Below are positions 271 through 37,334 of a stretch of 37,334 nucleotides of DNA, in pieces (position 1 is the first letter of the stretch; every line of letters begins with the position of its first letter). Under the pieces are notes generated by a model, which saw only the letters and a program-made list of their open reading frames with translations, was not told the origin of the DNA and searched no databases. This DNA comes from Acidobacteriaceae bacterium (GTDB taxonomy: Bacteria; Acidobacteriota; Terriglobia; Terriglobales; Acidobacteriaceae). Position numbers and translations under genes: made by a program. Location of the stretch: assembly GCA_003142935.1 (NCBI GenBank), contig PLOG01000008.1, positions 1 to 37,334 of the forward strand, read 5' to 3'.

Positions 271-289
271 TGGCGGGAGGGAGGGATTC
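271..289. repeat. Candidate distal attachment site (att core), imperfect direct copy of the tRNA 3' end at 37315-37334
   Basis: TGGCGG-GAGGGAGGGATTC versus TGGCGGAGAGGGAGGGATTC: a single-base deletion, same orientation. Confidence 0.7.
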
Positions 290-342
290 ACATCGCAACA
301 TAAGCGATTAAGAATGAGGTTCATGCAAAATCGCGCGAAATA

Positions 343-363
343 AATACACCCAAAAGTACACCC
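343..363. repeat. Left copy of a 21-bp exact direct repeat, candidate integrase arm-type site
   Basis: AATACACCCAAAAGTACACCC, identical to 37180-37200. Confidence 0.7.
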
Positions 364-531
364 ATCAAGAATAGACTGAGAGGATTTGCTGGTAGTTGAA
401 GGCTGAACCTACAACAAGCTTATTCGCATTATGGACGTGTCGTGCCCGCCTGGATTAGTGATCTGATTCTGTTCGCCAGTGATTTCACTATTCGATTGAT
501 TTCAATGATAGCGCAGAGAGAAAAGTAAACT

Positions 532-1138
532 AACCTGTCGGCACGCACGATTCGCTGCACCCACGCCGTTCTATTCTCGGCATTACGGCAGGCAGTACGT
601 TGGAAACTCGTCCTGAGGAACCGGCCGAGGATATCGATCTACCGCGGCAGTTGCGGCGGCGATTCATCCTGTTCAATGTCCAGCAGGCTCAGCAGTTCAT
701 CGCGGCGATTTCGGGACACAAGTATGAGGCCTTGTTTGCTCTCGCGATCACCGCAGGCATGCGACCGAGCGAATACCTAGCGCTTAATTGGCCGGATTTC
801 GATCTCGCGCATGGCACGGTAAGCGTTTCGAAAACCCTTGAGTGGCGAAAAGGAGGATGGGGCTTCGAAGACACGAAACGGGAACGCAGTCGGCGCATGA
901 TCAAGGTGCAGAACTGGGTTGTAGCCCTTCTTCGCAAATTGGAGGATGAAGCCAGAACAGCGGAAACCAAGCCCAGGGACCTTGTCTTCATGTCGCACCG
1001 TGGAGGCCCGATCCAGAAAACGAGGTTCGTATGGCACTACTTCAAGCCACTGCCCAATTCAGTTGGCCTTCCGAACATCCGTCCCTAGGATCTGCGTCAT
1101 ACAGCAGCTACTCTCGCCCTGGCCGCTGGCGTCTCGGA
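532..1138 (+). pseudogene. Tyrosine site-specific integrase pseudogene (frameshift near 622, amber stop at 1086-1088, 3' truncated)
   Basis: LSARTIRCTHAVLFSALRQAVRWKLVLRN, then a frameshift, then PAEDIDLPRQLRRRF...ITAGMRPSEYLALNWPDFDL...NIRP*DLRHTAATLALAAGVSES. This is recognisable integrase sequence on both sides of the two lesions. Confidence 0.85.
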
Positions 1139-1472
1139 AAGCCGGACTGCTTCTTCCAATGAAGACTCCAGCAGGTTGCGGTACTCGTCGACCGTCCGTG
1201 CGCGGGCGAGAGCCACTTCGGCTTCTCCGCGGATATTGTTGACCGGCGTGCGCAAATCGTGAGCGATATCGGCCGTGAATCTGGAGATGCGCTCGAATGA
1301 CTCTTCAAGCCGCTCCAGCATTTCATTGAACTTTCCGGCCAGCGACGCAAGTTCCGATGGATAACCTTCTGACTCGATCCGTTCGCGCAGATTCGTCGAG
1401 GTGATTCTCCGCGCGGTTGCGGCGATCTCTTCGACACGCCGAATACAAAAGGGAGATCCCCCGGCAGAGCCG
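1125..1472 (-). pseudogene. Heavy-metal-type sensor histidine kinase, central fragment (HAMP and H-box)
   Basis: RRVEEIAATARRITSTNLRERIESEGYPSELASLAGKFNEMLERLEESFERISRFTADIAHDLRTPVNNIRGEAEVAL: H-box FTADIAHDLRTP. The catalytic domain is missing; the sequence runs into the integrase pseudogene. Confidence 0.85.
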
Positions 1473-2821
1473 CATAAGCGCTAACTTGTTTGAGAGGACG
1501 CTTGTTCCTGCGTTTTGCGCATGCGGGGCGCTTCGGCTAAGCCCTTGGCGATCTGGTCCCAGTTTGCCAGCATATCGCCCAGAGCAAGTGCCGGTTGGAT
1601 TGCTGCGGTGGTTTGGTGAAATGCAAAGGAAAACTCACGCCACCGGCTGGGAAGTCGCTTGCTGTGCCAATGGGTATCCCCAGGGGGAAAGTGCGCGAGC
1701 GTGCTGGATGAGTTTCTCGGTGAGTAAGGTGACGAACAGCTTTCCATAGAGCCATGCTTTAGCGCCGTCTTGATCGTATTTAGGCAAGTGGCCCAGCTGG
1801 GCGATTTGCTTGAAGCGTTTGAAGACCAGTTCGATTTGCCACCGAAACCGGTAGTGGTCAAGAACCTGTTGCAAGGAAAATTCCAGAGCAGGAAACGTTG
1901 TCAAAACCATGACATATTGCGCGTAGACCAAGGTTTCAGGTTGCAGTTGGGTGCCATGCTTGGAAGCATAGCGTCTAAGCTTTTTCTGGGCCAGTGCGAT
2001 GGCCATTTGACTCTTGCGAACCACGCACAGCCGGGCTGAAACAGGGGCATGGTCTTCGAAGGGAACCAAAACCTCCCATTGCTGCATTTGCCCCGTCGCG
2101 GAAATCGATTTCAATCGCTCCAACAATCCAAACTTGGATCCATTGGGTGCCTGTAAGAGGATGCCGTCTGGGTTGAGTCGGACGGTAAGGAAAGCTTTTC
2201 TGTCGGCAGCATAATGGATTCCACTGGCATGGCAGTAACCGCGATCGACAAGAACGTAATCCCGGGGCTTCAAGGGAAATTGCCGCAGCGATTCACCGCT
2301 TCCCTTTCCCTCCGCAGCGGTAATTTTGAAGTAGTCGCAAACCAGTGTGGGCCATTGCAGACTGTAGTGAATGCGCCATTGACTGCCCGTCTTTCCGGGC
2401 TCCTTTACCACCGTCGCATCGATCAATCGCAGCGTTGGAAGGGACGCCGATTCGGCGACAAGACCGCGTTCCTCAAACATCGCGCAACAAAGCCGATACA
2501 GCCAATCCTTGCTTTTGCGCAGCCGTTTGAGCAAGGCCACGTCGGAAAGTTCCGCAAGTTTTGCCTGTCGGGCCCTCACCACGGTCTCACGCATGGAAAA
2601 ACCGCACCCCAGGTGCAGCAACAGCGTGCGCATATAGTTTTCTTCACTTTTATCCTGACGTAACCCTTTCAGCGCCTCCGTCACTTTCGCCAGCTCTTTC
2701 CAGTTCGGCGGAAAAAAGGAAAGCAGGAGTTTCCAGTCCTCGTCAGAAGCATTGGCTGTCGTCATGCACCCAACACTATCAAAATCGTGCCACCATTGCA
2801 ATAAACAAGTTAGCGCTTATG
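1473..2821 (-). mobile_element. Intact-looking IS4-family insertion sequence, about 1349 bp
   Basis: 19-bp perfect terminal inverted repeats CATAAGCGCTAACTTGTTT (1473-1491 and complement of 2803-2821), flanked by the 11-bp direct repeat CGGCAGAGCCG (1462-1472 and 2822-2832). Confidence 0.9.
1635..2765 (-). CDS. IS4-family transposase (DDE)
   Basis: LRLIDATVV, YVLVDRGYCHASGIHYA and YRFRWQIELVFKRFK (Y-R-E-K signature). Start chosen at MTTANASDEDW; the ORF track starts upstream at a TTG. Confidence 0.9.
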   Translation of the reverse strand: MTTANASDEDWKLLLSFFPPNWKELAKVTEALKGLRQDKSEENYMRTLLLHLGCGFSMRETVVRARQAKLAELSDVALLKRLRKSKDWLYRLCCAMFEERGLVAESASLPTLRLIDATVVKEPGKTGSQWRIHYSLQWPTLVCDYFKITAAEGKGSGESLRQFPLKPRDYVLVDRGYCHASGIHYAADRKAFLTVRLNPDGILLQAPNGSKFGLLERLKSISATGQMQQWEVLVPFEDHAPVSARLCVVRKSQMAIALAQKKLRRYASKHGTQLQPETLVYAQYVMVLTTFPALEFSLQQVLDHYRFRWQIELVFKRFKQIAQLGHLPKYDQDGAKAWLYGKLFVTLLTEKLIQHARALSPWGYPLAQQATSQPVA

Positions 2822-3469
2822 CGGCAGAGCCGGAGGATCCTTACTGCCTTGCCGCGCAATCTGGTATCCCACCAGCGGGAACAGAACCGACGTCACCAGC
2901 AGAATGCCCCAGAACCACAGCCGATAGCGCGTCAGCAGCTCCTCTTCCTGCGAAACGTCGATGGCGATTTAAACCGTGTCGCTGTCAGTCGCCGGCGTGC
3001 CGACGGCAACCGTAGCGCTGGTGACCAGAAATGGTTTCCCATTTCTGCCCGCCATTGCAATCGAACGCTCGGAGTGGCCGTGGGTTCGGTTCGCCAGCTC
3101 CGCAAGATCCAACTGTTCGGACATGCCGGGCGTCGTCATGACCGGTGCGCCATGTTCATCGAGAAGACGAATGTAGAACTGCTGGTACCGGCGCGCCGCA
3201 GACTCCAGTTCAATCTCTTCACGCAGCCCATCTTCATCGTCCGGGCGCTCGCGCAGCATGGAGCGAAGCACGTGCAGCTTGTCGGCAAGAAATAGCTCAG
3301 TGCTTCGGTCCAGTTCCGTCCGCAGGACGATGTAGAGACTCGCCGTAGCCAGAATTACCATCAACAGGCACGCCAACGAGTAGGCCGCTGTCAGCCTGAA
3401 TGCCAGGGCCCGGCGCAGCCGTGGCGTGGCCGGCGAGCTATGTTTCGGCTTCAAAGACATAGCCGGCAC
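2822..3469 (-). pseudogene. Heavy-metal-type sensor histidine kinase, N-terminal part, with nonsense stop
   Basis: RLTAAYSLACLLMVILATASLYIVLRTELD...PATDSDTV* then in frame IAIDVSQEEELLTRYRLWFWGILLVTSVLFPLVGYQIARQG (TM2). Interrupted by the IS at 1473-2821. Confidence 0.85.
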
Positions 3470-4783: not shown

Positions 4784-6697
4784 CTACGGCTTTGCTTGCG
4801 GCTCTGTCTTTCCGGCCGCTCCGCGTTCTGCGCAGGGTTTTCCGCCACATAGCTCGTCAGTAATGCCCACGCCTTCAGCGATTGTATAGATACAGTCGAC
4901 CGCCGGCAGCTTGACTGTCTGCTTGGCGCCGGAGGGCCAGTGAATCTCGACCGTGCCGGGATCGGTAGCATCGCCAAGGCCAAAGTGCAGCCTGCGATCG
5001 TTTGATGAGATGTAACTGCCGCTTGCCAGCACGTCCTGACGCTGGCGCATGCCGTTGGCGGTGAGATAGGCCGTGGCGCACGTCGCGTCGCGAGGACTCT
5101 TCGGACCTCCGATGAGTTTGAGCTCAACCCAGTGATGCTGATCGGGGTTCACATTACGCAGCAGCACAGGAAGACCGTCCATGCTATTGATGACAACATC
5201 GATTTTTCCGTCGTTGAACAGGTCGCCGAATGCCGCTCCGCGCCCAGGAACAACGACCGCAAGACCGGACCCTTCCACTGCCGGGACCAATTCAAACTTG
5301 CGCCGCTTGGTGAGTCCATCGGGGACATTGCGAAACAGCAAGGGCCGCTCGGCAAAGGAGGTTCCCCAGTCGTGCTTGTCCACCTGGGGATACACGTGGC
5401 CATTGACCATGAACAGATCGAGCCAGCCGTCGTTGTCGAAGTCGATAAAGCCGTCGCCCCAGCCAACAAAGGGGATGGTGGGCTGCGCAAGGCCGGTGCG
5501 GTAGCTTACATCCGTATAGCTCACATTGCCGTCGTTGTGGAAGAGCACTTTGTAGTCGTCGCCGAAGTCGGTGATAAAGAAGTCGACCTGGCCATTATTT
5601 TCATAGTCGCCCGCGGCGATGCCCATGGACGCAATCTCGCGGCCGTCGTTGTTGAGCGCGAAACCGGACCGGTAACTGTCGTCCTCAAAGGTGCCATCGC
5701 CCTTGTTGAAATAGAGGTAGTTGGGCATGGAGTCATTGCCCACCACGAGGTCAGGCTTGCCGTCGCCGTTGAGATCAATAAAGATCGAAGTAAAGCCGTA
5801 GTAGTGATCCTTGTCTTCAACGCGGGCCTTGGCAGTGACATCGGTAAAGGTGCCATCGCCATTGTTGTGAAAGAGGTGGTCTGGCTCGCCTTTGAGGCCG
5901 CGCGGGCCGCAATTCACAATTTCGCCGCGATACTGGCACGACCCGTGTCCCATGGCTTTGCTGCCGGAAATGGGAAGATTGTTGCGGTCGAAGTGCACAT
6001 ACCCGGATACATACAGGTCAAGGAGCCCATCGCCGTCATAGTCTCCCCATGCGGAGCCCGAGGACCAATTGCCGAGCGTGACTCCGGCTTTCTCAGCGAC
6101 GTCGGTAAAAGTTCCGTCGTGATTATTGTGATACAGACGGTTCTTGCCGTAGTTGCCCACAAAGATGTCGGGCCAGCCGTCATTGTCGTAGTCGGCAACG
6201 CTTACGCCGTAGCCCCAACGGTCATTGGTCACGCCCGCCTGCAGGGCGACGTTGGTGAAGGTGCCGTCGTGGTTGTTGTGGAACAATGCGGCATGCGGTG
6301 GCTCTTCCTTGCCGTCGAGCGCATCGAAAGTCGAGCCGTTGACGAGATAGATGTCGAGCCAGCCGTCATTGTCGTAGTCGAGCAGGGCAACGCCGGAGCC
6401 ATTCGTTTCGACAATGAAATTCTTCTCTGGCACTCCCATCTTGTGCCGCCAGCCGGATAGCCCTGCTGCCTTGGTAATGTCCTGAAAAACCACCGGGCCC
6501 GAATCGACAAATCCGCCCGCGGTAATGGGCCGTCTCTTTGCGTCGTAGACCGGGGCAGCCACAACGCCCGAGGCAATACCGCCCATCCCGCTCTGCACGG
6601 GGTGTGCTGGTGGTTGCTGTGCTTGCTGGGCCCGACAGTCTCCGGGTATTGAAAGAGTGGCTACCAACAGACTCCCCAACAAGCCGCGAATCTGCAT
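4784..6697 (-). CDS. CRTAC1-family FG-GAP/VCBS repeat protein with C-terminal ASPIC/UnbV domain, secreted
   Basis: Repeated xxDYDNDGWxDIxVxN...LYHNNHDGTFTDV motifs; C-terminal HHWVELKLIGGPKSPRDA...VEIHWPSGAKQTVKLPAV. Start at MQIRGLLGSLLVATLSIPGDCRA chosen because of an upstream GGAGGG; the ORF track extends to 6862. Confidence 0.88.
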   Translation of the reverse strand: MQIRGLLGSLLVATLSIPGDCRAQQAQQPPAHPVQSGMGGIASGVVAAPVYDAKRRPITAGGFVDSGPVVFQDITKAAGLSGWRHKMGVPEKNFIVETNGSGVALLDYDNDGWLDIYLVNGSTFDALDGKEEPPHAALFHNNHDGTFTNVALQAGVTNDRWGYGVSVADYDNDGWPDIFVGNYGKNRLYHNNHDGTFTDVAEKAGVTLGNWSSGSAWGDYDGDGLLDLYVSGYVHFDRNNLPISGSKAMGHGSCQYRGEIVNCGPRGLKGEPDHLFHNNGDGTFTDVTAKARVEDKDHYYGFTSIFIDLNGDGKPDLVVGNDSMPNYLYFNKGDGTFEDDSYRSGFALNNDGREIASMGIAAGDYENNGQVDFFITDFGDDYKVLFHNDGNVSYTDVSYRTGLAQPTIPFVGWGDGFIDFDNDGWLDLFMVNGHVYPQVDKHDWGTSFAERPLLFRNVPDGLTKRRKFELVPAVEGSGLAVVVPGRGAAFGDLFNDGKIDVVINSMDGLPVLLRNVNPDQHHWVELKLIGGPKSPRDATCATAYLTANGMRQRQDVLASGSYISSNDRRLHFGLGDATDPGTVEIHWPSGAKQTVKLPAVDCIYTIAEGVGITDELCGGKPCAERGAAGKTEPQAKP

Positions 6698-7262
6698 AGA
6701 CAGCACCCTCCGGGCTGAAGTATAGCGCATGAGCTCATAGCGCCGTTCCAAGGCTAGTATCTCAACGAAGCCTGCCTTTCGACAGTCGCTGATGTGCCTT
6801 TTGAAGGCAAAGCTTGACGCCCAATTCAGTTGATTCTCGGTTGCCGGCCTCACCGCGAGCACTTATCTTGCAGGCGGGATGATGCGGTACTGTTCTCTGC
6901 ACCCCACGTCTTGAGACTCTACGACGTAGCTCTTTCATTGCGGATCTGAGTACAGATTTCACACGGCGCTGGCAGAGGGCGAATACGGAAGATCTCTGTT
7001 TTCCATCTTCCTCTTGACGAGGAATGTAAAGAGCACAATCTTCGCGGAAGAGATTGTCCTCGATCTCGGTCGAGACCGAAGGATTTTGCCGGACCAATTA
7101 GCAACAGAACCACTTCCGACTCTGCACGGGCAAACTGTCTTGATGAAGAACTCATCCGAGAGCCATGCACAAATATATGTTGCGAGCTTAGCCTTCAAGA
7201 CCAATTCAAGCCACAACCTCCAAGGGTGGCTGCAATGTACTTAGCATGTATTTATCCCGTCC

Positions 7263-7292
7263 TTGACAGGGAAACAACCCCTCGGGTATAGT
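7263..7292 (+). promoter_or_regulatory. Candidate sigma70-type promoter for the TPR gene
   Basis: TTGACA (7263-7268), 18-nt spacer, TATAGT (7287-7292), about 26 nt before the ATG at 7318; GAGGGG in the leader could serve as Shine-Dalgarno. Confidence 0.55.
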
Positions 7293-7317
7293 CCCGTCAA
7301 TCGAGGGGCTCGTTGAA

Positions 7318-8715
7318 ATGCGCGGACTGGGCGGACCGACCGTCCGTGAAAGCATCAAAGTCAAACTACGTCCCGCTCGCGTTTACGAGATCAAATGTTC
7401 ATTACGCCCTTTGGTATCGAAGGAATCTGCGGGACATTCTGCGGTAGCACAAGTTGGGCGCTCCGGATCTGATTTGCAAACACCACTTCAATCTTGCTCT
7501 TTCATTAAGGTCATTCCATTATCAATCCGGCGTGATTTCATAATCATTGTCGCTTTGATATTTGCTGCAGGACTCTGTTTTGCAGAACAATCGCAGTTGA
7601 AGACGGCGAAAGTACTGCTTTCCAAGGGAGACCTCAAAGAAGCAGTGCCTTTGCTCCGGCAGATCGTCCAAGCCGAGCCGCAAAGTTCTGACGCGCATAT
7701 GCTCTTGGGAACGGCGCTCGCGTTACAAGGGCTTCGAACCGAATCGCTTGAAGAGATGCACTGCGCGGTGCGGCTGCAGCCGGACTCAGCAGTTGTACAT
7801 AATGCCTTGGGCCGTGTCTTGAGTCGGTTCCTCGAAGCTCCCGCTGCAAAGTCAGAGTTTGAGACTGCGCTTGCACTCGATTCGAACTTTGCAGAGGCTC
7901 ACGTGAACCTTGCACTGGTCCTCGCGCAATCGGGTGAGTTGCAGGCCGCCGGAGAACACCTGGACCGAGCAATTCATCTACAAGGCGAAACGAAAGCGGC
8001 AGCATACACACACTATCTGAGAGCGAAAGTGGCTCGTTCGCAGGATGATCTTTTGAGGTCAACAACGGAGCTGCAAAAGGCAGTTCAATTGCAGCCCGAC
8101 TACTCTCAAGCCTGGCTAGAGTTAGGAGAACTCCTCTTTCACACCCCTGACCGGCGTGGTGCATTAGAAGCGTTCAAGAAGGCCGTCTCGTTAAGCCCAA
8201 ACAACTCGGCTGCACAATCCAAGTTGGGCGAATTGGAATTGGAGGATGGGCAATCTGCGGAGGCTATCAAGCACTTAAAGCTGGCCATTTCATCCGGGGC
8301 GGAGAACAAAGCGGCACTCTATCTGCTGACTCGAGCATTGCGGAGGGAGGGCCAATTCGAAGAGGCCAAGCAAGTCGAAAAGCGAATGCTTGAATTACAA
8401 CACCGGGAAGACAGCGCATCCGAAGCTGCAGTTTCTGCATCCGACTTAAACAGTCAGGGAATGGCCCTGGAGAAATCAAATGATTCTCAATCAGCCTTGG
8501 CCAAGTACAAAGCTGCTCTCGATCTCGATCCCAGCGATGTTGTCTTTCGGCTTAACTACGCTCTTGCGCTGTGTCGCCTTGGCCGATGGAAGGAAGGGGC
8601 AGTGGAGTTGCGCGAGGTGTTAAGAGTGGATCCCGACAACTACGACGCTGCAAGGGCTTTGAACATCGCAAACGAGGAGTTGGCGAAAGAGCAGGCCATG
8701 TCCACTCCACACTGA
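7318..8715 (+). CDS. Tetratricopeptide repeat protein, membrane-anchored or secreted
   Basis: Hydrophobic segment DFIIIVALIFAAGLCFA followed by TPR-like repeats (DLKEAVPLLRQIVQAEPQSSDAHMLLGTALALQG; PDYSQAWLELGELLFHTPDRRGALEAFKKAVSLSPNN). Confidence 0.85.
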   Translation: MRGLGGPTVRESIKVKLRPARVYEIKCSLRPLVSKESAGHSAVAQVGRSGSDLQTPLQSCSFIKVIPLSIRRDFIIIVALIFAAGLCFAEQSQLKTAKVLLSKGDLKEAVPLLRQIVQAEPQSSDAHMLLGTALALQGLRTESLEEMHCAVRLQPDSAVVHNALGRVLSRFLEAPAAKSEFETALALDSNFAEAHVNLALVLAQSGELQAAGEHLDRAIHLQGETKAAAYTHYLRAKVARSQDDLLRSTTELQKAVQLQPDYSQAWLELGELLFHTPDRRGALEAFKKAVSLSPNNSAAQSKLGELELEDGQSAEAIKHLKLAISSGAENKAALYLLTRALRREGQFEEAKQVEKRMLELQHREDSASEAAVSASDLNSQGMALEKSNDSQSALAKYKAALDLDPSDVVFRLNYALALCRLGRWKEGAVELREVLRVDPDNYDAARALNIANEELAKEQAMSTPH

Positions 8716-8895
8716 TTACATGTGTGCCCGTCTGGATTCGGCGATGTTGAACAAATTGGATGCGGATTTCTCGCTGCGCACAGTGCTGGCGAGCACTGCC
8801 GACTCCTCTGCGAGCCAGATCCAGCATCTATTCCCCTGGAACCTTTCCGTCGCGCTTCAGACAGATTCTTTACAGGGGGCTTAGACACACTCTTG

Positions 8896-8924
8896 AGGTG
8901 TCCGCTAAAAACAAGCGGACACCT
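8896..8924. other. Perfect inverted repeat / hairpin downstream of the TPR gene
   Basis: AGGTGTCCGCT-AAAAACA-AGCGGACACCT; 11-bp perfect arms, 7-nt loop, no T-tract. Confidence 0.6.
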
Positions 8925-9222
8925 GCTGGACACTCTCATCCAGTCAAGGTGGGACCTTCGAACGCTTACCAGCAAAAAAACACCTAAGGAGGAACGTACC
9001 TGAGGTATTCTACAGTGCACCCTCATAGAAAGCATTTAATATCAATTGCTTGCGGAACAAGTGCCGCACGGTGCAGAACCTCGGTCAAACCAGTTCACCG
9101 CGAACAAGAACAGACGTCTGGCGCGCCGCACAAGGAAATGTCACGGCATTTGGTGGGGATAGGGCTGTCTTAGGAGGAGGCTTGATCGGAGGTAAATCGC
9201 GCTTGGCGATTAGACCATGTTC

Positions 9223-12523: not shown

Positions 12524-12695
12524 GGGTTGGACGAGTGGAATGGCCGCGAACAAGGATTGACAGCTGGATTCAGAGCGATTGGGACAAAGTAAGAGTGGTA
12601 ATAAAAGGTCTTTGTACAGGCGTCCTTTTAGAAACGACGACAAAGGGAACAACACGGGTAACGAAATGACGCAGAAAGAATTTAAGGGGGATGAA

Positions 12696-18426: not shown

Positions 18427-18595
18427 GGGCAAGCGGAAGAGGCAAGGAAACTGCACCGAGGAGCATCGAGTTTCGATCGATGCAGTGCGCAGGGTTACTA
18501 CTTCACCTCGGCAGCTCAGGCCACAAAGTTACATCAGTTGGAAAGAGACGAAGATTGGAAGTGGGAATAGATAGACGCTATTGGAGATTTGTTTG

Positions 18596-19912: not shown

Positions 19913-19976
19913 TAAATGCAAAGGATCGAGCCGCTCCAGCACATGCTGGATCGGGGAATGGGGCCAGATTTCAGTT

Positions 19977-26433: not shown

Positions 26434-27066
26434 CTATAGTTCGATCATCCCACGCTTGAGCCCAATCGTGACGGCATGGGCACGGTCGTTGGCGCTGAGC
26501 TTCGAAAGAATGTTTGCAACGTGGCTCTTGACGGTCGCTTCGCCGATTGAAAGCTGATCGGCAATTAACTTGTTGGAGTTTCCGGCAGCAATCAGCCGCA
26601 ACACATCGATTTCGCGCGAGCTCAATGCATCGTCCGTCGCGTGTTCGGCCAGCTGCGCGGCGATGTCGGGTGGGATTCGCTTCTGTCCGGCATGGACCGC
26701 GCGTATCGTCTCCAAAAGCTCGCGATGTACATGGCCTTTCAGTATGTAAGCACGCGCGCCCGCCTTGAGCGCCTTTAGTATCTGTGCATCCCCGCTATAC
26801 GTCGTGAGCACAATGATGCGGGCATCATTGAATTCTCTCTGAATCTCGCTAATTGCTTCAGCGCCATTCATCTCAGGCATCTGAAGGTCCATCAGAGCTA
26901 CATCCGGACGGTGTAAGCGGTATAACTCGATCGCCTCCTGGCCGCCCGATGCCTCCGCAACCAACTTCATGTCAGCTTCCGCATTGACCATAGCTGCGAT
27001 TCCCTTGCGAAGAATCGGATGGTCATCCACGGTAAGGATTCGGATCAGGCCAGGCTGGCTATTCAC
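26434..27066 (-). CDS. NarL/LuxR-family response regulator
   Basis: IRILTVDDHPILRKGIAAMVNAEADMKLVAEASGGQEAI...DVALMDLQMPEMNG; C-terminal LSSREIDVLRLIAAGNSNKLIADQLSIGEATVKSHVANILSKL. GTG start overlapping the kinase TGA. Confidence 0.92.
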   Translation of the reverse strand: MNSQPGLIRILTVDDHPILRKGIAAMVNAEADMKLVAEASGGQEAIELYRLHRPDVALMDLQMPEMNGAEAISEIQREFNDARIIVLTTYSGDAQILKALKAGARAYILKGHVHRELLETIRAVHAGQKRIPPDIAAQLAEHATDDALSSREIDVLRLIAAGNSNKLIADQLSIGEATVKSHVANILSKLSANDRAHAVTIGLKRGMIEL

Positions 27067-30000
27067 AGTTTGCGCTCCTTGCGAAAGACGTTGAATCGAT
27101 GACCATTTGTTGAGGCCTCGTAGGCGATGGCCGCCGGAATCGTCAGTTCGACCTCCGTTCCTGCTCCGGCCTGGCTCCAAAAACTCAATTGCGAACCAAT
27201 TCGCTGCGCACGTTCACGCACTCCCGGCAGGCCCCAGTGCCCGGGGCGTCGGCTTTCTTCGAGGACTTCAGGGTCGATGCCTTTGCCATCATCGCGTATG
27301 CGCAATCGAAGTTGGTTTTTGTCGAATCGTATCTCCGCTTCGATTTGGCCGGCGCCAGCATGCTGAAATGCATTTCGCAGCACCTCGCGTGCAATCCTGT
27401 ACACCTCGTCCTGCAGTTCCTGGGTCAGCTTCTGTGGTTCTCCTTCCACGATTACACGGAAACCTGGCGATTCTTGATTTGGGTCCGGAACCGCCGCCAA
27501 CTCTTCAGCGGTCGCCTCAAGCAAGGTAGCCAAATCTCCCTCGGAAACCGGCTGCGATCTCAGATCCTGAATGGCATCGCGGCTCTCGGCGATCGCCTCT
27601 TCGGTCTCTGAAATTGCCTCATCGAGCGTCCGCATGGCGTCTGCAGGCCTGCGAGGCAACATGTTGCGCGTCGCTTGAAATTGAAACATGAGCCCTTGCA
27701 GGCTCTGCAGGAGCGTGTCGTGGAGTTCGCGTGCAATGCGTGTTCTTTCATTCACGCGAGCTTCAAGGGCGATGTTGAATTCCTGCTGCATCTGACGAAG
27801 CCGCAGGAGGTAAAAGCCCCATAACAACGCCAGAAGTATTGCACCGCACATCGCGCGAAACAAGTTTGTCTGATAGTAGGCCGGGGCGATGCTGAATTGC
27901 TGCGATGCGCCTTCCTTGTTCCAAAGTCTGCTGTTGTTCGAGGCAATGACGTGAAACCTATATATTCCTGGTTTCAGGTCGTTATAGAAGGCTGTCCGCC
28001 TGGTTCCCGGATCTTGCCATTGCGTGTCGTATCCCTCGAGCATGTAGCGGAAGAGAACTTTGGACGGCGCTACAAAGCTCAGGCCGGTATAGTCGAACTC
28101 CAGTTCGCGGGTTTTGGGCGGCAGGTGTAGATCGCTTTGAACGTCATAAACCTTGCGATCGGCGATCACCTGCTCAACGTGCACCGGTGGTATTACCGTA
28201 TTCTCCGGAAGATGGTCGGGATCGATCATCAACACTACACTTCGGTTTTGAAACCATAGCTTTCCATCTGGCGTGCGAACCGCTCCCGGATGAGAATAAG
28301 GAATTCCGGCCCTGAAGCCATCCGTAGCCACGAAGGTCGACATCTGAATCCGGCTTTCGGGATTTGCCCACCACCGTTCCAACTCTGACTTCTCGATTCG
28401 CACCAGACCACACTGCGCCAGTATCCAAAGATCGTTATGAAGATCTGAGACGGTAGCGTAGGTGGACGGGCACGGCAGGCCATTGCGCTCATTGAGAAAC
28501 TGTAAGTCTCCGTTCCTATACCCGACGACACCGAAGTTCGCAGCTCCCCACAGAGTGCCGTCTGAATCGAACGACATGTTGAAGATGCCTCCGACCCGCG
28601 AATACTTTCGAATGAGTGCTCCCATCGATAGCTCTTGCCACTCGCCGGTCTGAAAATGCATTAGTCTGCCGTCAAGCAGACTCACCCAGACGCCTCCATG
28701 CGGATTTGCAATCACGAAAAAAGCCGCAGGAATCTGGGGAGGCTTGAATTCTTGGCGAACCTCAAAGTTTTCAGTCTGGACTAATCGTGGATGAGGCCCG
28801 ACGATTTCGGCCCAGACGGCACGATCAGGATCCTCTGCAATGGAATCGACGACGTCTACTCGATCCCCCTTGAAAACAACGTGTAATCGGCCATTTACCT
28901 CCACCCCTAAACCGCCATCTCCCATGCCGAACCACAAGTTTCCGCTGTGATCTTCGAATATCACAGTAGAATTACGGCCTACCCCGGGGGGCATCTTTTG
29001 AGGGGTAATTGACGAGCCATGGATCGAATCCATGGACACGGTAGTCAAAACAGCCACCGAGCCATCACGGCGATCCAGAATCGCATTGATAGTCTCCGTG
29101 CTGAGTCCCTCAACGCTCGAATAAGTCACAATCGGCAAATCGCGAAAATGATCGACCCCCTCGCCAGTTGCAACCCAGATGCCACCCTCGCGATCCTGGA
29201 AAATCCGGTATATTGAGTTACCTGACAAGCCATCTTCATGGCCAAAATGGTCAACAATCTGACCATGGATACGGTAGATCCCTTGATTTACGGTTCCAAC
29301 CCATAAACAATGATCTCGGTCGATAAAGAGGGTGCTAACAGGGACCTTCGCGCCGTTGAAATTTGGCGCGGCGTAAGAACTCCATCGCCCATTCGAAAAT
29401 CGCAGCAGTCCATCGCCTGGGCCGGTCTGGTCCACCCCTGCCCAGACTGTACCCTGAGCATCAACTGCAACGCCCTCAATCACTCGGCTGGCATCGGATA
29501 CACTTGCGCCGGGCAGCAGATACTCTCCGATGAGCTTCCCCTGCCACTCAATCAGCGTGCCGTTTGCGCCAATCCAAAATCGCCCTTGCAGGTCAGTTGC
29601 GATTGAGCCTGCGGATGCAGTCTGAATCCCGGCGGATTCGCCGTAGCACTGCTCGCTATCAGCCAAAACTCTGCAGATCGGTCCTGTAAAGGTACGCATG
29701 TGCGACCGTGTAATCCATATCTTGCCGTCACGGTCTCCGGTGATCGCATCCACTTTCGCATTGGGGGCGGATATGCTGGTGAACTTCTCATTTGCCCAGT
29801 GCGCGAGTCCCGCCGCCGCGCCGATCCAGAGACTTCCATCCTTGGCAGCATAGAGGAAACTAATACTGGCGATGCCGGACGGATATCGTTGACCATCTGG
29901 CGGACTCCAAGCCAGAAAATTCAGCCCATCGAATCGATACAATCCGCTCTGCGTCCCAATCCAGATGTATCCATCCGACGTCTGTGCGAAGGCAGTCGGA

Positions 30001-30140
30001 CTTCCGCTTAGTGCTCCGTCCTGAACACGCCAGACCGTATGTCCGTACTGCGAAATACGGCTTCCGGGATTGAGCGCCAGCGGAGGCTGAGCCAATGTGG
30101 AGAGGGTGGCGAAGATCGAGAGCAGTCTCCTCAGTCTCAT
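27063..30140 (-). CDS. Two-component-regulator-propeller sensor histidine kinase (Reg_prop, Y_Y_Y, HisKA_3)
   Basis: Repeated GYIWIGTQSGLYRFDG, GSLWIGAAAGLAHW, GGIWVATGEGVDHF; Y_Y_Y-like LEFDYTGLSFVAPSKVLFRYMLEGYDTQWQDPGTRRTAFYNDLKPGIYRFHVIASN; RTRIARELHDTLLQSLQGLMFQFQ. Start chosen at MRLRRLLSIF; the ORF track extends to 30242. Confidence 0.92.
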   Translation of the reverse strand: MRLRRLLSIFATLSTLAQPPLALNPGSRISQYGHTVWRVQDGALSGSPTAFAQTSDGYIWIGTQSGLYRFDGLNFLAWSPPDGQRYPSGIASISFLYAAKDGSLWIGAAAGLAHWANEKFTSISAPNAKVDAITGDRDGKIWITRSHMRTFTGPICRVLADSEQCYGESAGIQTASAGSIATDLQGRFWIGANGTLIEWQGKLIGEYLLPGASVSDASRVIEGVAVDAQGTVWAGVDQTGPGDGLLRFSNGRWSSYAAPNFNGAKVPVSTLFIDRDHCLWVGTVNQGIYRIHGQIVDHFGHEDGLSGNSIYRIFQDREGGIWVATGEGVDHFRDLPIVTYSSVEGLSTETINAILDRRDGSVAVLTTVSMDSIHGSSITPQKMPPGVGRNSTVIFEDHSGNLWFGMGDGGLGVEVNGRLHVVFKGDRVDVVDSIAEDPDRAVWAEIVGPHPRLVQTENFEVRQEFKPPQIPAAFFVIANPHGGVWVSLLDGRLMHFQTGEWQELSMGALIRKYSRVGGIFNMSFDSDGTLWGAANFGVVGYRNGDLQFLNERNGLPCPSTYATVSDLHNDLWILAQCGLVRIEKSELERWWANPESRIQMSTFVATDGFRAGIPYSHPGAVRTPDGKLWFQNRSVVLMIDPDHLPENTVIPPVHVEQVIADRKVYDVQSDLHLPPKTRELEFDYTGLSFVAPSKVLFRYMLEGYDTQWQDPGTRRTAFYNDLKPGIYRFHVIASNNSRLWNKEGASQQFSIAPAYYQTNLFRAMCGAILLALLWGFYLLRLRQMQQEFNIALEARVNERTRIARELHDTLLQSLQGLMFQFQATRNMLPRRPADAMRTLDEAISETEEAIAESRDAIQDLRSQPVSEGDLATLLEATAEELAAVPDPNQESPGFRVIVEGEPQKLTQELQDEVYRIAREVLRNAFQHAGAGQIEAEIRFDKNQLRLRIRDDGKGIDPEVLEESRRPGHWGLPGVRERAQRIGSQLSFWSQAGAGTEVELTIPAAIAYEASTNGHRFNVFRKERKL

Positions 30141-31691
30141 TCTCCACTCCGGTGCGTTTGCCGTTCGTAGCGCGAACCGATGACCCTCGTCGATTGGGCG
30201 ATCCTCAAACGTGAGGATGCGAACAGTCTTATTGTTTACCACTTAAGACCTCCGCCGGGGAACGGCTGGAAGGGCTCTGATGAGTCCCAAACAGCATACC
30301 ACTCAAGAAGGTCGGCCTTCACTCGTGAGCAGAGGCGAGTCTCTGCAGCTCTCGCCGATTCGCTAGGAGCAATCTTCGTTGGTCGGCTGGGTGCGGTAAC
30401 CGGGTGGAAGATTGGCGTTTGCGTCAAGACGGTCCGGGCGAAGAAGCATCGTAAGCTCCTGGTCTGCAGGAAGAGAAGGTCAGCTTTCGCAAAACCGCCA
30501 ATGCAGTCACCGAAGTGCGGATCGGTACTGATGTGTCGGAATGTCGGCTTGTGTCCCGAGGTCGATTGAAGAGCTAACTTGTTCCTGGCAGCCTCGAGCC
30601 TCAGCGGGCGTCGTCGACTGTGATTGAACCCACACCTTCTGACACAGCCGGGTTGGGCAGATCTGGCTATTGATCTAATTGGGTTTTGCAGAGCGGGCTT
30701 TCAGACCCCTTTCGTCACGGGTGTTTCAGGCCGTTCCGCGGCGGGTGGTGGGTGCTTGTGTTTGGGGCGTTGGAATCCTTACCCGGATTCCGGCGCATGA
30801 TAAAGGATGTTATTACTCGCTACCTTGCCAAACCAGGATCACCTCTGCGCCGGTCGGAATGTCATATTGCACGCAGTAGCTGCCGAGCGCTAGCAGATAA
30901 ACATTGACCGCGCGACCGGCTCTGCGCCTGATGTTTTCACCGGGAGGCGTGAAAACCGTTCGCGAAAGGTAGTCAGTCTCTTATCAGGTGTGCCGCAGAC
31001 TGTGCCATGTCGCGCGTGGCGTGATGTGTCAAATCAATGTCTTAGATGACCAGATTAGCGTGCTTCCGTGCGGGCTTTCTTAAGGGTAAGTGCTTGATCC
31101 TATAGTGATGATACCCAGCGGTCCGAGCTAGGATATGTTGATCCGGCATCAGCCAGCCCGGGCCGCATGATTGCGAGTTTCGCGATGTTGTGCGTTGCCA
31201 GTGTGCAGGAAGTGTGCCGAGAAAATGGCGGGCCACTCAGACGGAAGGCGGTCGGGAGCTTCGCCGCGGCCGTCCTGCCATTGCCCGATAGAAATCGCTA
31301 AACAAGCCGATTGGGGTAGGCACACATCTGGCACACGAAACGGCTTCGGGAGACGAGTCCGCCCGGTGTTCGGGAGGAGTAGCCATTGATTCAAGCAAAT
31401 TACCGGTCACTACCTCATGATTCGATGTGCGCCAAATTCAACAGATTGTGGGATAAGTGAACAAGGAGTTTCTTTTCTTGGAGCGCAGAATGCTCTCGCG
31501 CCATGCCAAGTTTAGCGCGCTGCCCAGTCCCTCGCCCGCCTCCTTTTCTCTTTCTCCCCCACGGTTCGATTGATTGTGTTTCATGCGGTTTCCCCTACTC
31601 CATGCAATGAACCCACTGCTTCCTCCGGCATTTTAGTCAAGGCAAATCCTGTTCTTTCAGCTAGTTACAGAATTTCTTGTTTCTACAGTTC

Positions 31692-31708
31692 TGATGTATA
31701 CTACATCA
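31692..31708. promoter_or_regulatory. Perfect palindrome, candidate operator upstream of the ORF at 31724
   Basis: TGATGTA-TAC-TACATCA, 15 nt before the ATG. Confidence 0.45.
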
Positions 31709-31723
31709 CGAGAGGATAACGGC

Positions 31724-32149
31724 ATGCCCCCTCAGACGAAGACCGCAACCAGAGCGAAGCGCAGAGTCGTTTCTCCGGCAGAGAAGCGGACTCAGGTCCG
31801 GCTTACGGTGGATTCCAAATTCACCAAAACACATTTCAGCCAACTCTTTGCCGTGCTGAAAATCCGGAAAAAGAATGCGCTCGCTGAGCACATCATCATG
31901 AATTTCAAGAGCAAAGCCGCGCAGGCGCAACTCCTTGCGTTCTACAACAACCAGTGGCTGAACATCCCATTTCGAAGTATTGACACCTCTTTTGTGTTTG
32001 CGTTGACCTACGAGATTGTGGATGAGCTGGAGAGAGTCGGCGGGGAGATTCTCGGCGGCGTGAATAAGTCCAAGACTTTTCGCGTGATGGTGGCCTACTT
32101 GGCGGCCGTTCATAAACTCCAGACGCCAGCCCAATCCACATTCGCATAG
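31724..32149 (+). CDS. Hypothetical protein at the edge of the mobilization module
   Basis: MPPQTKTATRAKRRVVSPAEKRTQVRLTVDSKFTKTHFSQLFAVLKIRKKNALAEHIIMNF...; basic N-terminus; GAGAGG upstream of the ATG. Confidence 0.6.
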   Translation: MPPQTKTATRAKRRVVSPAEKRTQVRLTVDSKFTKTHFSQLFAVLKIRKKNALAEHIIMNFKSKAAQAQLLAFYNNQWLNIPFRSIDTSFVFALTYEIVDELERVGGEILGGVNKSKTFRVMVAYLAAVHKLQTPAQSTFA

Positions 32150-32278: not shown

Positions 32279-34414
32279 CTATCTGCCACCACGTTCGTTG
32301 CTGAACGTTCTGAAATTGTTGCGCGATGCCAGATATGCAGCCTGCCGGAGTTGAGCAACCCGGTCGATAATTTCTTGCCGTTTCTCCTCGTGAATCGATA
32401 CTCTGAAAGCCGGTTGTCCCGAGGAAGACCTGACAAGGGCAATTGTTAGGTTGCCGTCGACATTCGCCTTCGGTTCTGGCTGTTGCGATGTTTTCAGGAT
32501 TTCGAGAAGTTGTCGGGACTGGGCGGCTGGCTGGAGACTCGCGAGGAGCAGGCGTGCATCTGTTTCGTCGGTGAAGATTAGATCCTCGATCTCCTCAGTT
32601 CTGAGCCTGGTTTCGATGGAATGCAGTCGCACAGCTCGGAGTTGGAGAGGATTCGCCAGGAGTTGTTCCTGGTGGAGGGCGCCTTGCATCTCCGGGTCCG
32701 TAAATTGGGCGAAGATGCCATGCTTGATCGCACACATAGTAACCATCCGCTTCCACTCTTCGCTTCCAGTACATGCGATCCGCGATCCGTATTTCTGGAC
32801 GGCCATCTCCAACCCGAAGACAATTGCCGCCTCGTCCTGGTTGAGTACGGTCACAAGGCGTCCGCGGTCGATGACGGAAACCCTGCCGTTCAGCATGTAT
32901 GACACGTCGCCGGTTTTCCGGTTGATCGTCCAAATACGTGTCGCAGCGATCTGGTTGGCAAGAATCTGTTGCTTCTGTTGGGCTGCAAGCTGCCGTTGCT
33001 CGAAGCCGGCCCAGTCGGTGCTGCTGTCATTGTCGGGAGATGGACCGATATGCAGCGCGTTTGATTCCAGCCGCGCATTGAGGCGCCGCTGATTGCGTAG
33101 ATCCGCATAATGCCATCCCCGAAGCTGCGCGGCAGCTCGCGCGTCTCCTTCGTCGGCTCTGTCCGCGACCCATGAGCGGAGATCCTTGGGGAATTGTTCT
33201 CGGCGCCTCTGTTGAATGGCCAGCTTCAGGGCGCGTACTTCGAGGACAGATTGAGCTGTTGCCTGGGAGAGCAGGACCTTCTTTTCCGGCCATGTCAGAG
33301 CGGACGCGCGAATCTCCCTCTTTTGTTGGCGCAAGACCTCAAGAAGATATTGCCTGCTTTCTCTGCCATCTGTTGTAAAGGCTTTGCACACTTCCCTTTG
33401 GCGGTTGCGATAGCGGTTATATTCATCCATCAGAGCAGATCGGTCTGCCCGTCGTTGCGCCTTGCGTTCATCCCTCTGTGCGGTATTACGCCCGCTCTGT
33501 GGTGCCGGATGTGGTGCGGTCTGTTGAAGGGATGTTGAGGCTGGTGTCCACGGCCCAAGAGCGGCTTCTGTCGCCTCACGGTTGATCTTTCCTGCAAAGT
33601 TGTGCCGGAATACGTCGGAGGCTTTCGCCCGGATGTTGTGGTCGATGGCGAGGACTGTGTATCCGCCCAACTCCCCCTTTTCAAGCCGGAGATGAGCCTC
33701 GGAGAGAAGGAGATGTAGATCGTCCCAGGTTACATTACGCCGGATGAGGAGTTGCTGTACGCGCGGGGCCACTTCCTTCCGGACAAAGGATTGCAGAGAT
33801 TCCTCATCGTGGTAATGTTCAAACTTTGCTGCTGCCCCTGTCGGCTGTTGCCGAGCGATTCTAAGCGCGTTACGTTCGGAACTTGAAGTGCGCACGGCCC
33901 GCTTCGATTCTTCATCCCAACGTGTCGGACCCGTTGTATGTGTCCAGCCATATTTCGCTTCGAGGACGCGCGCTGCGGAATCGAGAGTCAACCAGTTTCG
34001 ATAAGGTGTATGCGCTCTGAAGGTTTCCGGATGAACCTTGTTCACCATGATGTGGATGTGGAAGTGCGCTCTGTCATTGTGCGCGACAACCATATATTGA
34101 TGGTCTTGGTAACCGAGTACACGGAGAGTGTGCAAAGCACAGACGGTCCATTGCTCTCTGGTCGGACGTTCACAGGGCGGCCAGGACAGTTCATAATGAC
34201 AGAGCGCATCCTTACAGCGCGGGTTCAGAAATGCGATGCCCTCCATCTGTATCGCTACAGAGTCCAAACCGGCAATGTTGTCCGACAACACCACGTCTCC
34301 TCTGAGGAGAGGTTCGCCGGTGTCGGCGTCACGCTCGGTTGTCAGGTACGCGTGTAATCGCCTGAAGCTGCTGGAGTGTTGCCGGGCAGGTTGCACCTTG
34401 GCGATCATGTTCAC
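32279..34414 (-). CDS. mobA: Relaxase / mobilization nuclease (MobA/VirD2-like, probable MOBP)
   Basis: Three-His motif HFHIHIMVNKVHPET; N-terminal RRLHAYLTTERDADTGEPLLRGDVVLSDNI; ARVLEAKYGWTHTTGP. Confidence 0.85.
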   Translation of the reverse strand: MNMIAKVQPARQHSSSFRRLHAYLTTERDADTGEPLLRGDVVLSDNIAGLDSVAIQMEGIAFLNPRCKDALCHYELSWPPCERPTREQWTVCALHTLRVLGYQDHQYMVVAHNDRAHFHIHIMVNKVHPETFRAHTPYRNWLTLDSAARVLEAKYGWTHTTGPTRWDEESKRAVRTSSSERNALRIARQQPTGAAAKFEHYHDEESLQSFVRKEVAPRVQQLLIRRNVTWDDLHLLLSEAHLRLEKGELGGYTVLAIDHNIRAKASDVFRHNFAGKINREATEAALGPWTPASTSLQQTAPHPAPQSGRNTAQRDERKAQRRADRSALMDEYNRYRNRQREVCKAFTTDGRESRQYLLEVLRQQKREIRASALTWPEKKVLLSQATAQSVLEVRALKLAIQQRRREQFPKDLRSWVADRADEGDARAAAQLRGWHYADLRNQRRLNARLESNALHIGPSPDNDSSTDWAGFEQRQLAAQQKQQILANQIAATRIWTINRKTGDVSYMLNGRVSVIDRGRLVTVLNQDEAAIVFGLEMAVQKYGSRIACTGSEEWKRMVTMCAIKHGIFAQFTDPEMQGALHQEQLLANPLQLRAVRLHSIETRLRTEEIEDLIFTDETDARLLLASLQPAAQSRQLLEILKTSQQPEPKANVDGNLTIALVRSSSGQPAFRVSIHEEKRQEIIDRVAQLRQAAYLASRNNFRTFSNERGGR

Positions 34415-34737
34415 TCCGCCGTGTTCTTGTTGAAGGTGGCAAGTGCCGTGTGCAACTCCGATAGTACCGAGTTGAGTTCACGACGAAGTTCTTCTTCGTA
34501 GGGCAGGCCTTTTATCTCCATGAGCAGATGCTTTTGCAGTCCGAAGAGCTTGCTGAGTTCTGCGGCGACCTCCCGGCTTACTCTGGAACGTATTGGCCGG
34601 TTAAGAGCGCATTTACGAATGTATTCGCTGACCGTCAGGCCCGCGAGGTGAGCCTGTTGGCGAATAATTTCCTTCTCTTGGGACAAGAGTTTGATGAGCA
34701 ACCCTCGGCGATGTTCTGTCAGCTTTGGTCTTACCAT
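34411..34737 (-). CDS. mobC: MobC-like relaxosome accessory protein (ribbon-helix-helix)
   Basis: MVRPKLTEHRRGLLIKLLSQEKEIIRQQAHLAGLTVSEYIRKCALNRPI; GTGA overlap with mobA. Confidence 0.8.
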   Translation of the reverse strand: MVRPKLTEHRRGLLIKLLSQEKEIIRQQAHLAGLTVSEYIRKCALNRPIRSRVSREVAAELSKLFGLQKHLLMEIKGLPYEEELRRELNSVLSELHTALATFNKNTAE

Positions 34738-34739: not shown

Positions 34740-34875
34740 CTATGCTCCAATGGGGTCTCGGGGCGAAGCCCTGAGCAAGGTGCGCAGGCCCGAACCCGAG
34801 TAGCGAAGCGGGTTGGGTTGGGGCCGGTGGATATGCCAAAACGACCGTAGGGAGTTTCGGTATATCCAGCGCCTA
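34740..34875. other. Candidate oriT region upstream of mobC
   Basis: Inverted repeat GGATATGCCAAAA (34829-34841) / TTTCGGTATATCC (34855-34867), two mismatches. TATCCAGC overlaps its right end (34862-34870), one mismatch from the YATCCTGY core of IncP-type nic sites. Additional repeat AACCCG...CGGGTT upstream. Confidence 0.45.
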
Positions 34876-34949
34876 CCTTGCCTTCACGATTACCCGCTTT
34901 TTCATTTCCTTCAACATAGTAATACATATTTGACATAAGAAGTGTAGAT

Positions 34950-35303
34950 ATGGTTAAATTTCGTTTTATGGAGAATGAGACTCGTCGTAGGGCGCAGGTA
35001 CTCTCGTCGCACAATATCGAGGAGTTTCGTGCGTTTTTGAAGGAAAAAGCGAATGAACCTGCACCGCAACCTGCTTCGTACAGGATGGGCGGAATTGTAC
35101 GGGCGGTATTCCCTCAACTGTGTTTGCTGCGAAAAAGAGGATACACGCTCAATATGCTGGTCGGTCTTTTTGAGGAAAACGGCCTGAGAATCACCGCGAC
35201 TGCATTGTCGGTCTACATGAAGAAACTGAACGGGGAAGCGGAAGGGGTATCGGCAATCGAGGTTCGTAAACGGAGAACACAACCTTCCCCCCCTGGTTCG
35301 TAA
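34950..35303 (+). CDS. Small mobilization-region protein, possible -1 frameshift extension to 35413
   Basis: IEEFRAFLKEKANEP...IVRAVFPQLCLLRKRGYTLNMLVGLFEENGLRITATALSVYMKKL; divergent from mobC. Confidence 0.6.
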   Translation: MVKFRFMENETRRRAQVLSSHNIEEFRAFLKEKANEPAPQPASYRMGGIVRAVFPQLCLLRKRGYTLNMLVGLFEENGLRITATALSVYMKKLNGEAEGVSAIEVRKRRTQPSPPGS

Positions 35304-35592: not shown

Positions 35593-35823
35593 ATGCCGAG
35601 AAAGATTCTAAGACTGCCAATTGTGTTGGATCGCACCGGCCTATCACGAAGCACTGTCTATCAGCGTGTCACCGAAGGAAAGTTTCCAAGGTCGGTGTCG
35701 CTGGGTGCCAGGGCTGTCGGTTGGATTGAAGCAGAGGTCGAGGAGTGGATTGCCTGCCAGATAGAGGCCAGCCGGGAACTCTGCGGCCACAGAGCTGGCG
35801 TGAATCGTTCGTCGTCGAGATGA
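35593..35823 (+). CDS. alpA: AlpA-family regulator / excisionase-like HTH protein
   Basis: ILRLPIVLDRTGLSRSTVYQRVTEGKFPRSVSLGARAVGWIEAEVEEWI: canonical AlpA motif; GAGGTAAAGG before the ATG. Confidence 0.88.
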   Translation: MPRKILRLPIVLDRTGLSRSTVYQRVTEGKFPRSVSLGARAVGWIEAEVEEWIACQIEASRELCGHRAGVNRSSSR

Positions 35824-35912: not shown

Positions 35913-37139
35913 CTATGCCGCAGTTCCGCTAAACGGCAGCACCTTGCCGCCTCTCTGGGTGCGCTCCAGAAAATCCGCCCAGTCCTGCATCATCTTGGCG
36001 CGTGGCTCCAGATAGAGCGCATGGTTGTATGCCGCGCTCACCGCATTCCGGGGAGCGTGAGCAAGCTGCAACTCGATATGGTCATGCGCGTAGCCCTGCT
36101 CATGCAGGATGGTGGACGCCAGACCCCGGAAGCCGTGGCCGGTCATGCGCCCCTTGTAGCCCATGCGCTTTAATGCTGCCAGAATGGTGTTGTTGCTCAT
36201 CGGTTGGGCAGCATTGAGGTCGCCGGGAAAAAGCCATTCATTGCTCCCAGTGAAATCGCGCAACATCTCCAGCACCTCCAGAGACTGCCTGGCCAGCGGC
36301 ACAATGTGCGGAGTGCGCATCTTCATCCGCTCGGCGGGTATGTCCCAGCGGGCATTCTCCAGGTCAAATTCCCCCCACTTTGCTTCGATCAATTCGGTGG
36401 TGCGCACAAAGGTCATGGACATCAGTTTCATTGCCAACCGTGTGACCTGCTTTCCCTGATAGACCTCTATGCGTCTGAGCAGGGTCGGCAGCTCTTTGGC
36501 ATCAATGCGGGCATAGTTGGTTTTCGGCGAGGATTTCAGAATGTCGCTTGGGCGAATCTCGGTGGCCGGGTTACGCTTTGCATAACCGTGGGCGATGCCG
36601 TAGCGAAAAACCTGCCCCACCGTCTCCAGAGCGCGTTTGGCAATATCCCGCGCGCCGCGATCCTGAATCGCGTTGGCCATCGCCACCAATTCCGGCGCTT
36701 CGATCTCGGCAATGGGCCGCGCTCCCAAACATGGGAGAATGTCGGCCTCCATGCGCCGCCGGACCGAGTCCACATGGCGCGGGCTCTTCCCCTCCTCCCA
36801 ATGCTCCAGCCATTGTGTGGTAACGCTCTGGAAGGTGTTCTCGACCGCGATTTTCTCCGCAGTCTTTTCGGCCTTCCGTTGTGCCATCGGGTCAACGCCT
36901 GTCGCCAGCAGTTTCCGCGCCTCGGCGTGGCGTTCTCGGGCCAGCGCCAGAGGTACATCCGGATATTTGCCGAGGGACATGAGCTTTTCCTTGCCGTCAA
37001 ACCGATAGGACCAGCGCCACAACTTCCCGCCGGTTGGCTTGACCCAGAGGTACAGTCCGCCTCCATCGCCCATGCTGTAGGCTTTTTCCGCCGCCTTGGC
37101 CCGTTTGATCTCAGTATCGGTCAGTCCGGCCATACCCAT
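35913..37139 (-). CDS. int: P4-type tyrosine integrase (DUF4102 N-terminus)
   Basis: LTDTEIKRAKAAEKAYSMGDGGGLYLWVKPTGGKLWRWSYRFDGKEKLMSLGKYPDVPLALARERHAEARKLLATGVDP; catalytic FVRTTELIEAKW, HGFRG, SAAYNHALYL. Confidence 0.95.
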   Translation of the reverse strand: MGMAGLTDTEIKRAKAAEKAYSMGDGGGLYLWVKPTGGKLWRWSYRFDGKEKLMSLGKYPDVPLALARERHAEARKLLATGVDPMAQRKAEKTAEKIAVENTFQSVTTQWLEHWEEGKSPRHVDSVRRRMEADILPCLGARPIAEIEAPELVAMANAIQDRGARDIAKRALETVGQVFRYGIAHGYAKRNPATEIRPSDILKSSPKTNYARIDAKELPTLLRRIEVYQGKQVTRLAMKLMSMTFVRTTELIEAKWGEFDLENARWDIPAERMKMRTPHIVPLARQSLEVLEMLRDFTGSNEWLFPGDLNAAQPMSNNTILAALKRMGYKGRMTGHGFRGLASTILHEQGYAHDHIELQLAHAPRNAVSAAYNHALYLEPRAKMMQDWADFLERTQRGGKVLPFSGTAA

Positions 37140-37154
37140 TCCTCCTCGTCTAGG

Positions 37155-37200
37155 AAAAGTACACCCACTTCAAGAACATAATACACCCAAAAGTACACCC
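37155..37200. repeat. Right-end candidate integrase arm sites
   Basis: Two AAAAGTACACCC (37155-37166, 37189-37200); 37180-37200 is the exact 21-bp match to 343-363. Confidence 0.7.
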
Positions 37201-37239
37201 GTCAGAACACGGCTGCACCTGGATGCATCTGGACGCAGA

Positions 37240-37277
37240 AAGACGTAAAGCCTAGCATTTGCTAGGCTTTATGTCTT
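37240..37277. terminator. Strong hairpin between integrase and tRNA end, probable terminator
   Basis: AAGACGTAAAGCCTAGCA-TT-TGCTAGGCTTTATGTCTT: 18-bp stem with one mismatch. Confidence 0.55.
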
Positions 37278-37314
37278 TATATTGAATGTCTTTGGATGCT
37301 CTGGGAAGGGTTTC

Positions 37315-37334
37315 TGGCGGAGAGGGAGGGATTC
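37315..37334 (-). tRNA. 3' end of a tRNA gene (probably tRNA-Ser), truncated by the window; proximal att core
   Basis: Reverse complement GAATCCCTCCCTCTCCGCCA has T-arm, acceptor stem and encoded CCA typical of a tRNA-Ser 3' end. The rest lies outside the window. Confidence 0.65.

Follow-up and report, generated by a model that had tools for sequence, protein, structure and literature searches.

Integrative and mobilizable elements (IMEs) possess their own integration functions and borrow the conjugation machinery of another element (PMC5704250). The canonical MobP IMEs NBU1, NBU2, Tn4555 and Tn4399 come from Bacteroides; IncP helper plasmids are listed for several members of this class, and tandem accretion at shared sites is described for IMEs (PMC5704250). 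No described proteobacterial IME belongs to the canonical class, and acidobacteria are not named in the text of that review (PMC5704250). Integrative conjugative elements (ICEs) have been reported in acidobacteria (PMC3158045); a limited literature search found no described acidobacterial IME. Acidobacteria are dominant in many soils, and gene exchange among them is poorly described.

The stretch of DNA analysed in this study (the window) is the entire contig C155, 37,334 bases long, from a 5.2-Mb draft assembly of 219 contigs. Judged by the relatives sampled and the named matches, it probably comes from in or near the Acidobacteriaceae. Our analysis makes it highly probable that the window represents one element of about 37 kb (271/290 to 37334), an integrative and mobilizable element of MOBP type located in the 3' end of a tRNA-Ser(CGA) gene of a soil acidobacterium. 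Like NBU1, NBU2, Tn4555 and Tn4399, it combines its own integration functions and a MOBP relaxase with the absence of a coupling protein and mating pore; it differs from them in host phylum, in its large metabolic cargo and in its tRNA-Ser target (PMC5704250). It is thus a well-supported new example of an already known element type. The original prediction had read the whole window as an integrative mobilizable element with catabolic cargo, and this is backed by the family-wide tRNA siting of the integrase, by a gene block shared with an uncultured relative (L094), by the ends found on contigs C137 and C153 and by a related element in genome G098. An island with both ends, a relaxase, an oriT-like site and polysaccharide/sugar cargo offers a concrete, testable route for carbohydrate-use genes to spread in acidobacteria. 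The coordinates of the features are listed in the table.

Features of the window, with position, strand and supporting evidence. Percentages are identities.
Feature	Position	Strand	Evidence
Outer flank motif TTTAGAATCAATAACTTA, probable junction of another tRNA-associated class	247..264	-	Motif also after tRNA-Phe, -Ser and -Leu 3' ends elsewhere
Distal att core, copy of tRNA-Ser 3' end minus one base	271..289	-	Fuzzy match to right-end 20-mer
Distal end of element, inner side, conserved; includes arm repeat 343-367	290..491	.	88% match to C137, 75% to C153
Second tyrosine integrase, fragment	600..1088	+	PF00589 partial; PHROG integrase
IS with 37-nt terminal inverted repeats and DDE_Tnp_1 transposase, later insertion	1455..2839	-	Repeat search (I1); Pfam
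Cargo: FG-GAP/UnbV protein, TPR protein, 464-aa protein without assignment	4784..10617	.	Pfam; NCBIfam
Cargo: GH28 polygalacturonase-like protein, TonB-dependent outer-membrane receptor	10892..16112	+	Pfam
Cargo: rhamnulokinase-like FGGY kinase, FucP-type symporter, LutA/LutB/LutC-like lactate oxidation genes	16870..22851	+	NCBIfam; Pfam
Cargo: two-component-propeller sensor kinase, LuxR-type response regulator	26434..30242	-	Pfam
orf151, final gene of conserved block	31694..32149	+	78% in L094
mobA, TraI/MobA(P) relaxase with LPD7 domain	32279..34414	-	NF041893 above cutoff; PF03432; 76% in L094
mobC, NikA-like relaxosome accessory; likelier start ATG at 34737, ORF open from 34839	34411..34737	-	PF21983; NF041264 just below cutoff
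oriT-like site: imperfect inverted repeat 34829-34842 / 34854-34867, then nick-like CTACCTTGCC at 34873-34882	34829..34882	+	L094 comparison; DNA fold
orf117, small conserved mob-block protein	34950..35303	+	74% in L094
AlpA-type excisionase/regulator	35593..35823	+	PF05930; PHROG excisionase; 83% in L094
Tyrosine integrase (Arm-DNA-bind_3, Phage_int_M, Phage_integrase)	35913..37139	-	Pfam; 94.6% (amino acids) to L094 integrase
Arm-type direct repeat, integrase side	37180..37204	.	Repeat family D3; 96% to 343-367
40-bp palindrome followed by T-rich sequence, terminator-like, from element just downstream of tRNA	37239..37278	.	Self-complementary match
tRNA-side att core, 3' end of tRNA-Ser (CGA by comparison)	37315..37334	-	Contig ends inside tRNA

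The minus strand of 37315-37334 reads GAATCCCTCCCTCTCCGCCA. In four genomes of the same genus (G008, G124, G083 and G191) the tRNA-Ser(CGA) gene ends in exactly this sequence; the other isoacceptors, where read in these four genomes, differ from it. The right end of the window is therefore very probably the 3' end of a tRNA-Ser gene of the CGA isoacceptor, as judged by this comparison. ARAGORN called zero tRNA in the window because just 20 tRNA bases are present. The tRNA-Ser set of the same assembly comprises GGA on C5 and TGA on C165, while neither tRNA-Ser CGA or GCT nor the remainder of the cut tRNA was found elsewhere in it; the lack of a CGA gene elsewhere fits a tRNA truncated by the contig end. 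In G124, G083 and G191 the tRNA-Ser(CGA) gene has no adjoining integrase junction, and its surroundings are not conserved among genus members, with no synteny beyond the tRNA.

At 271-289 the left copy (TGGCGGGAGGGAGGGATTC) corresponds to the right-end 20-mer with one base deleted. Sixty shuffled windows gave 0 sites at two or fewer edits and a mean of 0.017 at three or fewer edits, and no third copy of the 20-mer was found in the window at up to three edits. The claim of the original prediction that the tRNA 3' end recurs on the left minus one base agrees with these shuffles and with the exact tRNA match within the genus; its placement of the integrase downstream of the tRNA in the same orientation also holds, the integrase start lying 175 bp from the tRNA 3' end. 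The window carries its own integrase, attached site-specifically, and flanking direct repeats; restoration of the target gene is visible over the 20 nt of the tRNA 3' end, where the contig stops. A 25-nt direct repeat has one copy just within each end (343-367 and 37180-37204). A chance repeat or an assembly artefact might be considered, since on the right the contig breaks off at a repeated sequence, the tRNA, and on the left within what looks like a fragment of an IS; we regard this as hardly credible given the shuffle expectation of zero at two edits, the independent homologues of both ends and a contig with zero N. By our reading, the integrase would have recombined the tRNA with an attP that itself bore a tRNA 3' end copy; this would restore the tRNA on the right and leave its displaced 3' end as the mark of the left end. 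AlpA probably acts as excisionase. In several integrase relatives, inverted repeats comparable to the 37239-37278 palindrome were seen by eye downstream of the tRNA, as though a new tRNA terminator came with the element.

Searching 200 genomes of the family with the integrase/att query revealed matches in 61, part of them through the tRNA end alone. At most of the integrase-bearing loci the tRNA just past the integrase start is Ser (TGA/GGA/CGA/GCT), Val, Gln or Arg, and at many of these loci, as in the window, a TTCC..ACATCC-like sequence was seen by eye after the tRNA. In one genome (G133) the integrase lies at tRNA-Ser(CGA) and the 20-mer is identical. This family search indicates that the integrase type marks tRNA genes throughout the family.

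Comparison with L094 (CAIMKZ010000006.1, uncultured Acidobacteriaceae MJ-time_bin-1738) revealed the block int-alpA-orf117-mobC-mobA-orf151 at a tRNA-Ser gene in the same order as in the window, with the amino acid identities given in the table for five of the products and a weaker match for mobC (44% over 81 residues). The two loci differ in their target, L094 sitting at tRNA-Ser(GCT) and the window at CGA, and in cargo, where relatives are limited to receptor-type proteins (about 26%) and the 464-aa protein (24-29%). No convincing distal core of the L094 element was found on its contig. It was predicted that mobA, mobC and alpA adjoin the integrase, and Pfam and NCBIfam profiles recovered AlpA, a NikA-like MobC and a TraI/MobA(P) relaxase there. 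The relaxase scored 291 bits against NF041893 (cutoff 250), placing it in the MOBP type. Orf117 gave zero Pfam or PHROGs matches. TraI/MobA(P) relaxases of mobilizable and conjugative plasmids belong to the same family as the window MobA; all 4491 plasmid matches fell below 60% identity, the best among the matches listed being 38%. Only two relaxase relatives were found in the genome collection by a search that picks up close relatives only, and a solved-structure search with MobA gave zero matches.

The relaxase is thus assigned above an NCBIfam cutoff, and the oriT-like site is proposed by comparison only. This site sits between orf117 and mobC, ahead of mobC; the stretch GGCAAGGTAGGCGCTG is identical in the window and L094, and the region gave a better DNA fold than its 200 shuffled versions (z = -2.7). 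The nick-like CTACCTTGCC may correspond to an IncP-type nick core, being similar, not identical, to the YATCCTG/Y-like sequence; its position and conservation fit. After excision, MobA and MobC may nick this site upstream of mobC, and the strand would exit via the mating channel of a helper conjugative element, which is invoked because the element has no channel of its own.

The predicted absence of T4SS genes was borne out: no T4SS or coupling-protein family was detected among the window ORFs scanned, which included only part of the small ones. The complete T4SS that an IME lacks is thus not seen among these ORFs, and neither are the VirB4 and coupling protein that accompany the relaxase in an ICE. 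An ICE that has lost its T4SS or has it on another contig is very improbable. MOBP relaxases of the same family as MobA do occur on conjugative plasmids and the assembly is fragmented, but this reading is largely refuted by the closed ends, since both lie within the contig with no T4SS domains found between them; moreover, the closest module, in L094, continues into cargo-type genes, and VirB4 gave no match in the same assembly. Any helper would therefore need to come from outside, and VirB4 is present in 7 of 21 genus genomes.

Analysis of related ends placed the left end of the window in a family. Positions 277-491 match C137:15167-15382 with 88% identity, and the C137 segment directly adjoins GAATCCCACTCTC, with which the 3' sequence of the genome's own tRNA-Ser(GGA) begins. 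That tRNA, on C5, is adjoined by a sister integrase 84% identical (amino acids) to the one in the window. Because C5 and C137 are not joined, we infer rather than observe that they are two ends of one island. C153 of the same genome carries a third distal end, 75% identical to that of the window. In G098, a 1.4-Mb contig has an integrase with 75% identity to that of the window next to a tRNA-type core at 172495, and a distal core with two bases missing at 181026; the outer motif follows both the tRNA and the distal core. This element (G098:C2:172495-181026) has the same end anatomy as the window, with AlpA near the distal end and the same outer motif TTTAGAATCAATAACTTACG. Unlike the window, it is 8.5 kb long, has other genes, gave no relaxase match and has a phage-like element on one side and the outer motif on the other. 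With both of its ends visible, this relative shows that the anatomy claimed for the window occurs elsewhere.

These ends bear on whether the element is still active. It is unlikely, though to be taken seriously, that the window is a former IME now fixed through base loss in the left core and a missing helper. The missing core base, the IS and integrase fragment at the left and an assembly without VirB4 are consistent with this. On the other side, the genes for the integrase, relaxase, MobC and AlpA have uninterrupted frames of normal length, and VirB4 is found within the genus. Departures from the tRNA sequence are also seen in other distal cores (two bases missing in G098, differences in the same part of the core in C153), which points to such changes being tolerated or to neutral drift away from the crossover. 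The left end is nevertheless eroded, and with its lost core base, IS and integrase fragment the element may be defective, leaving its present mobility uncertain.

The fragment of a second integrase and the IS near the left end are also in line with a composite origin, in which int and mob arrived on a smaller IME (about 31.6-37.3 kb) that inserted next to an older decayed cargo island, so that the outer ends are shared and the cargo moves only on outer-site recombination. Accretion is a known route (PMC5704250), and the L094 mob block with unrelated cargo shows that block and cargo are separable in evolution. We consider this origin rather improbable, as no internal core occurs at three or fewer edits, the left end belongs to the same family as the C137 and C153 distal ends, and its arm repeat matches the integrase end. 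With the window read as one element, a wider proposal is quite possible but tentative: an undescribed acidobacterial MOBP IME family in which one integrase lineage uses several tRNA-Ser isoacceptor genes, sugar cargo is swapped behind a fixed int-alpA-orf117-mobC-mobA-orf151 block, and accretion takes place beside elements of a second tRNA-junction class.

The flank outside the left repeat reads TTTATATTTAGAATCAATAACTTACG. Of 200 family genomes, 24 contain the pattern TTTANAATCAATNACTTA; the reversed control pattern gave 0 matches. Among the loci inspected, the outer motif lies directly after a tRNA-Phe, Ser or Leu 3' end in about eight and after tRNA-end copies in others; the remaining inspected matches have no such tRNA end adjoining. 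Positions 240-289 match the 3' end and downstream side of the genome's own tRNA-Ser(TGA) on C165 at 88%. Plain chromosome at 1-270 was ruled out by this match together with the motif after Phe, Ser and Leu tRNAs. Since the left flank matches another tRNA-junction class, it is probably an accretion site; the outer motif would be the junction of a second tRNA-targeting class, and the island would abut another such element or its remnant.

Several minor observations concern such junctions and the left contig end. By eye, the minus strand of window 1-150 contains an IS630-type transposase-like fragment within which the contig ends. On C165 (1-429, L010), an integrase-like frame stops 15 bp upstream of tRNA-Ser(TGA), pointing toward it. 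Phage-like genes (protease, capsid-like and tape-measure-like, by eye) occupy G098:C2 162624-172495 directly before the integrase relative, flanked by tRNA-Ser(GGA) and a second copy of that tRNA's 3' end. In G119:C1, three copies of the TTTAGAATCAAT.ACTTA motif occur within 79 kb (5185484, 5229536 and 5264149), the first after tRNA-Phe and the second after a tRNA-Phe end copy, which suggests a tandem island array.

The cargo also includes alpha/beta hydrolases. FucP and LutB scored above their NCBIfam cutoffs and the FGGY kinase below. Judged from these families, the use of pectin-derived deoxy sugars plus lactate oxidation is a plausible role, and the cargo would be a set for the use of pectin, deoxy sugars and lactate that includes its own regulators. 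Since fucP and lut genes are widespread in the family, and a further lut copy (79% identical) exists in the same genome, the cargo was dropped as proof of recent transfer; genes this common prove no transfer by themselves. A GC shift as an island sign was likewise not seen: the window has 52-58% GC against 56-58% in the compared part of C5, so composition gives no mark of foreign cargo. The 464-aa protein (9223-10617), which has no Pfam or NCBIfam match, has relatives beside TonB-type receptors twice on the L094 contig (C6 of G200, 27157-28380 and 48108-49433), and it is possibly a recurrent partner of such receptors.
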